The notes below the pieces were generated by a model. That model had not been told where the DNA came from and made no database searches. It saw only the letters and a program-made list of their open reading frames with translations. Positions 29,677-33,936 of a DNA stretch of 64,000 nucleotides are shown piece after piece (positions within the stretch are counted from its first letter, which is position 1; each line of letters opens with the position of its first letter). The DNA comes from Caldibacillus debilis DSM 16016 (GTDB taxonomy: Bacteria > Bacillota > Bacilli > Bacillales > Caldibacillaceae): positions 290,084 to 354,083 of the forward strand of contig NZ_KB912879.1 in assembly GCF_000383875.1 (NCBI RefSeq), given 5' to 3'. The translations under genes and the position numbers were made by a program.

Positions 29677-31707
29677 TCATTGCCTTTCCTTGAAAATCTC
29701 CGCCACTTTGTTGACCACGTAACTGCTGCCGCCGTCCTTTTCCACGTTTTCAATCATCATGGCGATCAACAGATCGGGATTTTCCGCAGGATAGGCGACG
29801 AAGAAGCCGTTCTCCTGCCCTTTTTCATCTTTTTTCGCCTTCAGCTCGGCCGTTCCCGTTTTCCCGGCCAGGACCAAATCTTTCATATACGCCCCGCGGG
29901 CGGTCCCATACGGGCTCGCCACCACTTCCTTCATCATATCGGCAACGGCGTCGGCCGTTTCCTTTGAAATCACCTTTTCTTTCCAAACGGTATTCGCTTT
30001 CGCCTGTTCAATGACGGGCAGGATCATGTTCCCGTCGTTGATGAACGGCGTATAGACCGCGGCCAGATGCAGGATGCTCATCAGCATTTCCCCCTGGCCG
30101 TAACCCGTATCGGCCAGCTGCGGACCCTTTTTCAATGTTCCGCTGTTCGAAATTTGCGAATCTTGTACCGGATAGCCGAATTTCAACTCTTCCCCGAACC
30201 CGAATTTTTTCAAGCCGTCCGCCAGCTGATCCGGGCCCATCTCAAGGGCGGACATGGCGAAATAAATATTATCCGAAGTAATCAGGGCATCCTTCAAATC
30301 CACTTCGCTCAAACGGGTGCTGACCCGGGTAACGGAATAATTTCCCCAGGAAGGATCATCGGGGCGCCAAGTCTTCCCGGAGATCTTCTTTTTCTTCTTT
30401 GGATCGATGGTTCCCGTCTCCAAGCCGATGGCCGCCACTACGGGCTTGATCGTGGAGCCGGGCGCATAGGCCGAAGCGAACCGGTTGATCAGCGGCGTAT
30501 TTTTATCTTCCTGCAATTGTTTCAATTTTTCCGAAGAAATGCCCAACACAAACGCATTGGGATCGAAGGCGGGGGTGCTCACCAGCGCCAAAATTTCCCC
30601 GGTTTTCGGATGGATCGCGGCGGCAGACCCCTTCCTTCCCTTCATTTTTTCATAAATCTTTTTCTGGAGTTCCGCATCGATCGTCAACGTAATCGACTCG
30701 CCTTTTTCCGGCGCTTTTTCCGCCAGAACCACATCCGAGCCGTCGGTTTTTTCAATGTAAATTTTTGCTCCGTTCTTCCCCCTCAACCGGTCTTCGAAGA
30801 GTTCCTCCAACCCCCGTTTTCCGATCCGGTCCCCCGCGGAATAACCCTTTTCCTTATTTTTTTCCAATTCTTCCGCGGTGATTTCGCCGATGTAGCCGAT
30901 CAAGTGAGCGGCCGCTTCCCCGTAAGGATATTCCCTTTCGCTGACCTCCCGGACGGAAACCCCCTGGATTTCCTTTGCCTTATCGATGAGCGCCGTTTCG
31001 GTTCGCGCCACTTTTTTGATCGGGACGAAAAAATGGGGTTGAACCCAGGAAGCGTTTAACGCCTGGTCGATTTTCTCCACGGAGACATCCAGCAGTTCCG
31101 CAAGCTCTCCTTTGATCTTTGCCTCATTCCCTTGCATTTGTTCGGGCACGAGCCCGATTTCAAAGGCGCTGCCGTTGACGGCAAGGGGCAAACCGTTCCG
31201 GTCGAAGATTTCCCCCCGCTCCCCTTTGGATGTGGTGATGCGCACCTTGTCCCCTTCCTGCAAATTCGGGAAAATATACGTGGTATTCCATTGGATATAC
31301 CAGTCTTCCTTGTCATCCCGTTTCTCTTTCACGAGGGAGGCCTCATGTTCGAAGGAAATCTCTCCGGCCAATGTGTCCATTTTTACGGAAAAGGGAAGTT
31401 TGACCGATTTTTCTTCCTTTTTCCCATCCTTTTCTTCCACTTTCACGGGCTTCACTTGCAAATCTTTCACTTCGAGATCTTTATAAATCTTTTTATACCT
31501 TTCCACAAAATCTTCCTTAAAGATGCTTTTCCTGCTGGATTCGGAAAGCATCTCATACATATCCCCAAATTTTTGTTCGGACCAAAGCTTTGTGAATCTT
31601 TCCAATCTTTCTTCGGGAGTCGGTTTGTCTTTGCAACCGGAAAGGAGAATGACGGCTCCCGCGATGATCACGAAGAAAATAAAGGGAAAACCTCTCTTCC
31701 GCTTCAT
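29677..31707 (-). CDS. pbpC: Class B penicillin-binding protein, lipoprotein (PbpC/PBP3-like)
   Basis: A 676-residue transpeptidase that cross-links peptidoglycan outside the membrane. It has a lipoprotein signal ending LLSGC (Cys25), an N-terminal MecA/NTF2-like domain (about 30-150), a PBP dimerisation domain, then the transpeptidase with the serine motif STIK (about 418), SDN (about 477) and KTGT (about 616). This is the layout of Bacillus PbpC and staphylococcal MecA-type low-affinity PBPs. ATG 31707 follows GGAGGGCG; a 150-codon upstream extension of the open frame has no coding character. It is monocistronic, with tandem terminators downstream. Reduced beta-lactam affinity is possible but not shown. 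Confidence 0.9.
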   Translation of the reverse strand: MKRKRGFPFIFFVIIAGAVILLSGCKDKPTPEERLERFTKLWSEQKFGDMYEMLSESSRKSIFKEDFVERYKKIYKDLEVKDLQVKPVKVEEKDGKKEEKSVKLPFSVKMDTLAGEISFEHEASLVKEKRDDKEDWYIQWNTTYIFPNLQEGDKVRITTSKGERGEIFDRNGLPLAVNGSAFEIGLVPEQMQGNEAKIKGELAELLDVSVEKIDQALNASWVQPHFFVPIKKVARTETALIDKAKEIQGVSVREVSEREYPYGEAAAHLIGYIGEITAEELEKNKEKGYSAGDRIGKRGLEELFEDRLRGKNGAKIYIEKTDGSDVVLAEKAPEKGESITLTIDAELQKKIYEKMKGRKGSAAAIHPKTGEILALVSTPAFDPNAFVLGISSEKLKQLQEDKNTPLINRFASAYAPGSTIKPVVAAIGLETGTIDPKKKKKISGKTWRPDDPSWGNYSVTRVSTRLSEVDLKDALITSDNIYFAMSALEMGPDQLADGLKKFGFGEELKFGYPVQDSQISNSGTLKKGPQLADTGYGQGEMLMSILHLAAVYTPFINDGNMILPVIEQAKANTVWKEKVISKETADAVADMMKEVVASPYGTARGAYMKDLVLAGKTGTAELKAKKDEKGQENGFFVAYPAENPDLLIAMMIENVEKDGGSSYVVNKVAEIFKERQ

Positions 31708-32047
31708 ATGACGCCCTCCGTCTTTTGGATATCCGACCGGGTTTGCAAAAACGGTCTTGAATCGTCCGCACCGAAACCTTCCGCAACGGAAATTCCGATC
31801 CGAATGATGTGAAAAACCGGAAAATCTGTCGGGTTTCATTTTGGAGACAAAAAGCAGGTTCCTATCCGACGATGGCAAAAACGGTCTCTCGTTCTTATTC
31901 ATTGTACCATAGTTGCCTGAAACCAATCTATGCAATCTTTCCCTCCATTCCTTCGGCAGCCCCGGCTCCGGTGAAAGCTCTAACGGGCGCATCCCGAAAG
32001 GGATTTTGGCCTGCAAAAATTTTACGCATCCTTTGCCATTCCCATGT
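31708..32047. other. Upstream region of the PBP gene
   Basis: Contains the presumed PBP promoter and no gene that I can support. Open frames here have no ribosome sites and are continuations or shadows of the PBP frame. Confidence 0.4.
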
Positions 32048-32050
32048 GCC

Positions 32051-32106
32051 AAAAAAACAAAACCCGGGCGGTCAGCGCAGCGAAAAGCCGGGGCCGGCAC
32101 CGGGTT
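32051..32106 (-). terminator. Intrinsic terminator downstream of the 21-bp repeat array
   Basis: On the minus strand AACCCGG (32100-32106) pairs with CCGGGTT (32061-32067) around a GC-rich loop and is followed by TTGTTTTTTT. It would end a minus-strand transcript that begins in or before the AbrB-family gene and reads through the whole repeat array. Confidence 0.65.
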
Positions 32107-32156
32107 CTCCCGGCGGATGTCCGCCAACGGGCAATGATTTTCGGACACAGGGAGCA

Positions 32157-32710
32157 ATGATGGACATTTTTCACGCGATGATGGACGTTTTTTTCGCGAT
32201 GATGGTTATTTTTTCTTTGATGTCGGACAAATGTCTTCCCATGTTGAACATAAATTTTAAAATGTTGAACCAATCTTTGAAAATGTTGGACAGTCTCTTG
32301 CGATGTTGGACGATTTTTTGCCGATGTCGGACCATCCGGAGGAAATGTTGGACATTCCGCCGATCCGGCCGAAACCGATGTTGAACGTACAGTCCGGAAT
32401 ATTGGACAAACGGATTTTTTCTTGGACGTTTTTCCAAAAATGTTGAACATTTTTCCTTCGATGTGGAACCATCCGATCGGAAAAAAATGAAAATGTTGGA
32501 CATTCCGTCGTTAAAGCCGAACCCAATGTTGAACGTTCAACTCAAGAGATTGGACAAACGGGTTGTTTATTGGACATTTTCCAAGTAATGTTGAACATTT
32601 TATCCCGGATGTCGGGCCATCCGGCCGCGAAGAAAGCTGAGATGTCGGACATTCCGGCCCGGCAAAAATGAACGCGGACGTTCCTGTTCGAAGTTGTTCA
32701 AACATGGAAC
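32157..32710. repeat. 21-bp-period degenerate repeat array with ~148-bp higher-order unit
   Basis: About 23 copies of a 9-base core, ATGTTGGAC or ATGTTGAAC (general form ATGTYGRAC), recur mostly 21 bases apart. Core starts are 32157, 32178, 32199, 32220, 32241, 32262, 32283, 32303, 32324, 32345, 32378, 32399, 32419, 32440, 32461, 32493, 32526, 32547, 32567, 32588, 32609, 32642 and a relic near 32702. The 12 bases between cores vary but are often T-rich or of the form ATTCCGnCG. The block 32345-32492 is repeated at 32493-32640 with the same irregular spacing and about three-quarters identity by eye. Steps of 20, 32 and 33 bases break any reading frame. The array lies between the AbrB-family stop (32857, minus) and a minus-strand terminator (32051-32106), so it would be transcribed as 3' untranslated RNA. 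Confidence 0.85.
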
Positions 32711-32856
32711 AATCCGTCCAGACAGGCGGGCAAGGGGTGCCGCGCAATCCCCGGTGCAAGCGGACCCGCCATGATCCATGTTCGTCCCTTCCCGCCCTTT
32801 ATGCAGCCGAAAAAATTGCGGATAAGCATCCGTATAAGCTGCCGCGCCGCCTTTCC

Positions 32857-33936
32857 TTAAGCGTTTTTGGCCCCTTCGTTTTTCCGTTTTAAAAGTTTCA
32901 CGGTAAGGGGAGTGGCGATGAATAGGATGACGAAAATGCGGAACAGGTGAAAGCTCGTTACGAATGACACATCCAGTTTGAGGGCCATCGCCGTAATTGC
33001 CATTTCCGCGATTCCTCCCGGGGCGACGCCGAGGAAAATTTCCCCCACCGGATAGCCGAAAAGGGCGTGGAACAGGAAAGCGAGCAAAAAACAGAACAGG
33101 ATCAACGCGGCGTTTGATAAAACGGTAATGAAAACGAGGCTCGCGCTGAATTGGTTTCGGCTGATTTTCATTTGCCGGCCCAAATGGGCGCCGATCGCCA
33201 CTTGGGAGGCGGCCAGGACGGGATCGGGAAGGACAAGGTTCGGCAGTTCTGCCGCGTTCAGGCAAATGCCCGCCAGCATCGGCCCCAACAAATAAGGGAT
33301 CGGCATTTTTATTTTTTTCCCGGCATATATAAAGAGAACGGCAAGGGCGAACAGCAGGAACCCGTGAAAAACGGTAAATGCCCCGGCGGCATCCTGCCCA
33401 CGGCCTCCCGCTGCGCCGGCATGTTCCGAGATCAAGAAATGGGTCGTCAAATAGGGGACGGCGGATATGACAAAAATGATCCGAAAGGTTTGCATGAAGG
33501 TGACGACCGCTTCATCCGCATCTTCGATCTCCTCGCTTAAGACGACCATCTGGGAAAGGCCGCCCGGGAAGCTGCCGATCGCGGCAGAAGAAAGGGTGAT
33601 GTTTGCATATTTGCAGAGCAAATGGGCGGCCAGCACCGTGAAGCCGATGACCGCCGCCGACGTAAACCCCATAAGGGGCAAATGCCGGATCATGCCGCCG
33701 AGGACCTCTTTCGTAAACGTGCTTCCCAGCTGAAGGCCCAGGCAAATCAGACCGGCGTTCCTTAACGCGGCAGGCCAAAAGACGGACGGGAGGAAAGCTT
33801 TGGCCAGAAGGACGGCAAACATCGGCCCCAGCAGCCAAGGGAGAATGATATGCAGCTGTGAAAAAAGAATTCCTCCGGAGAGGGCGATGACAAGCGACAA
33901 AGCAAAAGGAAAGATCTTCTTCTTCACCAATTCCAA
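32857..33936 (-). CDS. AbrB-family membrane transporter (PF05145)
   Basis: A 359-residue integral membrane protein with about ten hydrophobic segments and two similar halves, as expected for the duplicated AbrB-type family often misnamed ammonia monooxygenase. Repeated motifs are PWLLGPMFAVLLAKA (about 32) and PYLLGPMLAGICLNA (about 213), each starting a half, plus SFPGGLSQMVVLSEE and GVAPGGIAEMAITAMAL. It is not the AbrB DNA-binding protein. A transport role for small organic acids or amines has been suggested; the substrate is unknown. It is followed on its own strand by a ~750-base untranslated stretch with the 21-bp repeat array. Confidence 0.87.
   Translation of the reverse strand: MELVKKKIFPFALSLVIALSGGILFSQLHIILPWLLGPMFAVLLAKAFLPSVFWPAALRNAGLICLGLQLGSTFTKEVLGGMIRHLPLMGFTSAAVIGFTVLAAHLLCKYANITLSSAAIGSFPGGLSQMVVLSEEIEDADEAVVTFMQTFRIIFVISAVPYLTTHFLISEHAGAAGGRGQDAAGAFTVFHGFLLFALAVLFIYAGKKIKMPIPYLLGPMLAGICLNAAELPNLVLPDPVLAASQVAIGAHLGRQMKISRNQFSASLVFITVLSNAALILFCFLLAFLFHALFGYPVGEIFLGVAPGGIAEMAITAMALKLDVSFVTSFHLFRIFVILFIATPLTVKLLKRKNEGAKNA

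Follow-up and report, generated by a model that had tools for sequence, protein, structure and literature searches.

What kind of sequence is the array of short direct repeats that lies between two minus-strand genes of Caldibacillus debilis DSM 16016, and does it act through a peptide, through an RNA or as DNA? The array is part of the window, the whole stretch of 64,000 nucleotides analysed here. An earlier note on this DNA had counted about 23 copies of the word ATGTYGRAC from position 32051 onward, had placed them in the 3' untranslated stretch of an AbrB-family gene, and had offered three roles for them: phased protein binding, a sponge RNA, or a fast-evolving satellite.

Structure of the array in the window

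The repeat array and its duplicated 148-bp block, both reported before, were recovered by TRF, which detects periods of 21, 20 and 148 bp (Table 1). Eighteen words within one mismatch of ATGWYGRAC lie at 32157-32650, far above the level of 500 Markov shuffles (mean 1.3, maximum 5). The exact word ATGTYGRAC occurs 13 times inside 32157-32662 and once more on the plus strand in the rest of the window; the figure of about 23 copies is thus reached when decayed words are counted, but not with exact or one-mismatch words. The start had also been set about 100 bp too early, as the first word is found at 32157. From word to word, the array advances in steps of 21, 42, 21, 21, 21, 20, 21, 21, 33, 21, 41, 21, 32, 33, 62, 21 and 33 bp. 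The 148-bp block is an internal duplication, in the window copy, of the second half of a dispersed element, and blastn reports this copy in two rows (C1:322226-322588 and C1:322576-322742).

Table 1. Positions of the repeat array, its parts and its neighbours in the window.
Feature	Position	Strand	Basis
Array	32157 to about 32662	+	Recount of words and TRF periods
Whole copy of the dispersed element	32116-32704	+	Family-profile nhmmer matches 32116-32507 (E 9e-118) and 32490-32704 (E 5e-47)
Regular part: 8 detectable 20/21-bp units and one decayed unit (ATGATGGTT at 32199)	32157-32344	+	Motif positions and steps
148-bp block, about 1.9 copies	32343-32623	+	TRF period 148, 79% matches; two overlapping profile hits
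Last clear array unit (ATGTCGGAC and spacer)	32642-32662	+	Motif positions
PBP gene with MecA_N domain	29677-31713	-	Closest NCBIfam model PBP4(5), score below its cut-off
Strong terminator-like hairpin, then TTGTTTTTTT	32059-32109	-	Minimum-energy fold, AACCCGG paired with CCGGGTT
Weak terminator-like hairpin and T-run	32809-32832	-	Hairpin scan, 5 pairs; also in the minimum-energy fold
AbrB-family membrane protein gene (PF05145, TIGR03082)	32857-33936	-	Domain and family models

The AbrB label of the neighbouring gene holds in the sense of the membrane protein family, and not in that of the DNA-binding AbrB regulator. The PBP gene on the other side starts at an ATG at about 31711, inside an ORF of 826 amino acids.

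A dispersed element with a common rhythm

The earlier note had proposed a search for arrays of the same period elsewhere in the genome. By pattern scan and blastn, about 39 homologous loci were found in the 3.06-Mb assembly, with 70-92% identity to one full copy, and a family-profile search of the fetched loci recovers the dispersed copies. The window array is one of these diverged copies of a dispersed non-coding element of about 450-540 bp. Since the copies have one irregular rhythm in common (82, 21, 42, 20, 21, 21, 33, 21, 42, 21, 33), the internal layout must be older than the dispersal. The 5' boundary is sharp: in about 18 copies, homology starts at the first core (GATNTTGGACAAACCGC) and the upstream sequence is unrelated. 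The 3' end fades across copies, and inspection of the flanks by eye revealed neither a terminal inverted repeat nor a target duplication.

The 37 copies with callable neighbours, as assessed with a simple codon-scored gene-calling script, lie in 13 divergent, 18 co-directional and 6 convergent settings, so that a location in 3' untranslated stretches does not describe the family as a whole. Orientation is mixed, with 6 sense and 12 antisense copies among the 18 co-directional settings, and shows no bias relative to local GC skew, which led us to reject a replication-strand polarity of the KOPS or Chi kind. Ten flanking proteins were scanned, including UvrC, FecCD, a bifunctional PBP, CNNM/CorC proteins, MscS, an MFS transporter, DeoR and a NERD protein. 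They are housekeeping or unnamed proteins without a common theme; none is a Cas protein, and as none is a transposase, a transposon origin was set aside. At one locus (L138:4606-6847), two element copies of the same orientation enclose one gene, which encodes a nuclease-related protein of the NERD-domain type.

Core words are constrained relative to spacers

The core TGWYGRAC, with its centre GTYSRAC, is a near-palindrome that varies mostly at W (fourth base of ATGWYGRAC), Y (fifth) and R (seventh). Across 40 aligned hits, conservation reaches 0.87 in core columns and 0.74 in spacers, a contrast that is partly built in because the core columns were picked from the consensus; the copy-to-copy rates are less affected. 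Between copies, identity is 0.79 in cores and 0.62 in spacers, and the ratio of core to spacer substitution stays at about 0.5 in copy pairs across most of the divergence range. When different units of the consensus are compared with one another, cores reach an identity of 0.86 and spacers 0.34, the latter near background. Given that spacers are more alike from copy to copy than from unit to unit, it was the spacers, and not the cores, that diverged between units before dispersal.

Substitution falling alike on cores and spacers, which the earlier note had named among the marks of a neutral satellite, is therefore not what we observe, and the constraint on the cores disfavours neutral decay, although arrays do turn over between species (see below). 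Part of the core conservation could come from short-tract homogenisation between units.

Related arrays in the order and beyond

A three-unit pattern search of 397 members of the order matched only the source genome and genomes G286 and G124; the reversed pattern gave zero matches. G286, from a different family of the order, carries GTCGGAC arrays with a 21-bp period at many scattered places, and G124 has an array of ATGTCGAACGTGCGCAAAAAC; the spacers of both differ from those of the source genome. The G286 arrays (contigs C1, C3, C4, C9, C12, C16, C19, C21 and C25; L229-L240) keep a strict 21-bp period with two alternating spacer types, and several of them directly adjoin terminator-like hairpins.

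Turnover is visible in the genus of G286. The gap after upp holds GTCGGAC arrays in G286, G091 and G762. In G171 and G367, a 21-bp array of the GTTAAAC type stands there, and G307 has a different repeat, with longer units of about 51 bp that contain GAGGAGCGTTTCAATGACG, in place of the 21-bp arrays of its sisters (C23, L274). Orthologous arrays of G091 and G762 keep their cores but vary in the number of units, with whole-unit gaps of 63, 22 and 41 bp; they run on into a second array with the core TTACCGAATA at 20-21 bp. Further intergenic 20-21-bp arrays carry the cores TTTCGCTGTAT, TATCGGCGCC, GTTAAAC and GAGTCGCTC in G171 (C5, L347-L355) and GAGCGCCA, GAGCGCTGATAA and ATTCGGTA in G091 (C1, L307-L326). 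At one locus of these sister species, the core of one is swapped for another core in the other.

Outside the order, TTGGAC-type arrays at 19-21 bp occur, several in each, in Arthrobacter beigongshangensis (L054) and a Spirochaetaceae MAG (L091). The Arthrobacter genome contains several families of 19-21-bp arrays (AGTGTSCAAC, GTAGTCSAGTT, TTACAGTTT, TTATCAATCAATT; L054, L242, L243, L356-L366) and one array with a period of 39 bp (L362).

Unrelated cores on a two-turn ruler

In a survey in which the motif was not chosen beforehand, intergenic DNA was scanned for any lag from 9 to 60 in parts of four array-bearing genomes. Lags of 20, 21 or 39-42 bp account for 7 of the 11 matches in the source genome (400 kb), 18 of 20 in Arthrobacter (220 kb), and, in two genomes of one genus that are not mutually independent, 21 of 23 in G091 (400 kb) and 13 of 13 in G171 (180 kb). 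A uniform spread would place about 11% at these lags, and shuffled intergenic DNA gave no match there. The same-family genome G001 (400 kb) yielded three matches, one of them at lag 42 and none at 20-21, and none at 20 or 21 was found in 20 other members of the order, covered by stretches of up to 20 kb (299 kb in all, with some N runs).

The cores of the surveyed arrays are unrelated (GAGCGCCA, GAGCGCTGATAA, ATTCGGTA, TGAGCYTCTYG, TTTCGCTGTAT, GTTAAAC, AGTGTSCAAC, GTAGTCSAGTT, TTACAGTTT and others), and at least six different cores occur within one genome of the genus of G091; a single binding protein would thus not suffice for all of them. What the arrays have in common is a ruler of about two helical turns, while the core word differs.

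Weighing the explanations

A decayed repetitive protein built of seven-codon repeats (MLDxxxx heptads) would account for the period of 21 bp, and the plus-strand core does read ATG TTG GAC. The frame is not kept, however: steps of 20, 32, 33, 19, 31 and 41 bp break it, lags of 20, 40 and 41 bp are frequent in other genomes, and variation within the core falls on the first and second positions of codons, with no frame in which all of it would be synonymous. The earlier argument against a peptide repeat is upheld, and we regard coding as most improbable. An untranslated RNA that carries the word GUYCRACAU many times over and serves as a sponge or as a regulator in the 3' UTR is also improbable. 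It would fit the position of the window array, downstream of a minus-strand gene and followed by the strong hairpin with its T-run, and some G091 arrays likewise sit between a stop codon and a terminator. Yet in the minus-strand reading the array separates this hairpin, which exceeds the loop limit of the hairpin scan and comes from the minimum-energy fold, from the AbrB-family gene, and the weak hairpin stands just past the stop codon, ahead of the array, where it may halt transcription. Read-through into the array, and with it the long untranslated RNA proposed before, is therefore not implied, although the scan for such weak hairpins with a T-run found 3 sites against 2.8 expected by chance. 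Only 3 promoter-like matches, all weak, turned up where 1.0 is expected, copies of the element are frequent between divergent genes and their strand is mixed, folding of the array is no better than shuffles on either strand (z -1.2 and -1.5), and an Rfam scan of the window gave no match. Intrinsic curvature from phased T-tracts, in place of protein sites, draws on T5-T7 runs that recur at a fixed place in several units with a conservation of about 0.8; it is likewise improbable, as many units of the element and the arrays of G286 and Arthrobacter keep ruler and cores without A- or T-tracts, and the most constrained positions are the cores and not the tracts.

The strongest competitor is an interspersed satellite, selfish or near-neutral, spread by a copying process and enlarged or shortened by slippage, whose cores would be homogenised or recognised by the copying or slippage itself (for example, by a transposase encoded elsewhere). 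This is quite possible, if doubtful. It accounts for dispersal and turnover: the sharp 5' edge, the non-homologous places, the whole-unit gains and losses between species, the exchange of cores at the same locus in sister species and the lack of the arrays in the 400 kb surveyed of the same-family genome G001 all fit. It does not account for the common ruler, because slippage alone does not explain why almost all arrays, whatever their core, have a period of 20-21 bp. Two further points speak against it: among dispersed copies the cores change at about half the rate of the spacers, and no transposase was seen among the ten flanking proteins, nor any terminal inverted repeat or target duplication.

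Rows of helically phased protein-binding sites acting at the DNA level are the best explanation, one that we hold tentatively. Phased binding ranks first among the three roles offered earlier because it joins the 20-21-bp ruler across unrelated cores and genomes, the conserved and constrained 8-10-bp words with free spacers between them, and a placement indifferent to orientation and transcription; counted against it are the 33-bp steps, which amount only roughly to three turns. Each row would comprise about 20 near-palindromic sites (TGWYGRAC) two helical turns apart, which would bring bound proteins onto the same side of the helix. Cooperative binding of these rows by a sequence-specific DNA-binding protein, or by a few related ones whose specificity changes fast, may form a local nucleoprotein stretch between genes. 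Such a stretch might mark the chromosome architecturally or topologically, or act on transcription as a roadblock or insulator, like BIME/REP clusters in role and not in sequence. That unrelated bacteria have the same layout, each with words of their own, points to rows of docking sites for a putative protein. It is rather unlikely that these rows form a polyphyletic class of elements of bacterial chromosomes that has so far gone unrecognised, in which two-turn intergenic direct repeats keep their ruler, rapidly replace their core words and are bound by fast-evolving DNA-binding proteins that organise or insulate the chromosome between genes.

If the ruler does reflect protein binding, phased protein arrays would take up a sizeable share of intergenic DNA in some bacteria; from one sister species to the next, they would keep their place and spacing but exchange their recognition words. 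This would be a bacterial parallel to the evolution of satellites and centromere proteins. As each genome offers many copies and several core types as bait, this would open a testable route to chromosome-organising proteins.

Relation to described repeats

BIME/REP clusters of enterobacteria are intergenic, interspersed and mosaic, and bind gyrase and IHF at the ends of transcription units; their REP units are palindromes of 30-37 bp. The likeness in habit is a functional analogy only, as the units here are direct repeats of short cores, fold no better than shuffles into hairpins and have no 3'-end preference in the source genome. Plasmid iterons of 17-22 bp, and the boxes of LytTR regulators, which are paired 9-bp direct repeats with gaps of about 12 bp, place proteins on one face of the DNA. 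Such repeats are few in number and occur at one regulatory site or origin, in contrast to about 39 dispersed chromosomal arrays of about 20 units each. CRISPR arrays, with long and nearly identical repeats and unique spacers of one length, differ as well, since the cores here are degenerate 9-bp words and the 12-bp spacers are conserved between copies (0.62 identity). Two further candidates were rejected: a CsrA sponge requires GGA, yet the core reads GAAC in about a third of cases, and attC sites match in the GTTRRRY box but not in the TCG variants or the same-strand layout of the array.

The closest described kind is that of STAR-like interspersed direct repeats. STAR elements of staphylococci have a 14-bp core, T(G/A/T)TGTTG(G/T)GGCCC(C/A), and spacers of at least 40 bp (PMC3532100). 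Like the present arrays, they are made of short, conserved cores that are directly repeated with spacers between them, form intergenic arrays at numerous loci, vary between species in loci and abundance, and change by whole units (PMC3532100). Here, the about 39 intergenic loci are species-specific and, by pattern, missing from relatives in the order except G286 and G124. The differences lie in an 8-9-bp TGWYGRAC core, whose consensus ATGWYGRAC lacks the GGCCC block, in spacers of 11-12 bp, in the two-turn period and in a defined element of about 450 bp. The arrays also resemble the broad class of clustered close direct repeats, pattern 8n4g24, in which one octamer is present four or more times with gaps of up to 24 nt. 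According to the accessible part of their description, these are over-represented in the genomes of about half of the mesophiles and psychrophiles, and a 20-21-bp ruler or core constraint is not among the features reported in that part (PMC4060949). A search of the accessible literature returned no description of 20-21-bp intergenic arrays, and a two-turn ruler common to unrelated cores appears to be undescribed there.

Other repeats matched by the pattern

Pattern matches in Desulfobacterota and Verrucomicrobia belong to a different repeat, ATTCGATGTTGGACGTTCGATGTTCGATGTTGGACGTTCATC, with units of 7 bp, which matched only because 21 is three times 7. This repeat is intergenic in many contigs of many MAGs, mostly of Desulfobacterota and Nitrospinota (L020-L136), where other repeats with periods of 7 or 14 bp accompany it. 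The G505 match, made of near-identical ATGTTGAACAAAGATTAGAGA units, was set aside as a probable in-frame coding repeat, and those in G023, G037 and G007 are lone pairs that resemble coding sequence and form no array. In a Prevotellaceae MAG, one 8-kb locus (L090) carries two separate arrays, one of ATGTYGGAC at 21 bp and the other of the near-palindromic word TTCTCTTCGCGATGAGA at 22 bp.
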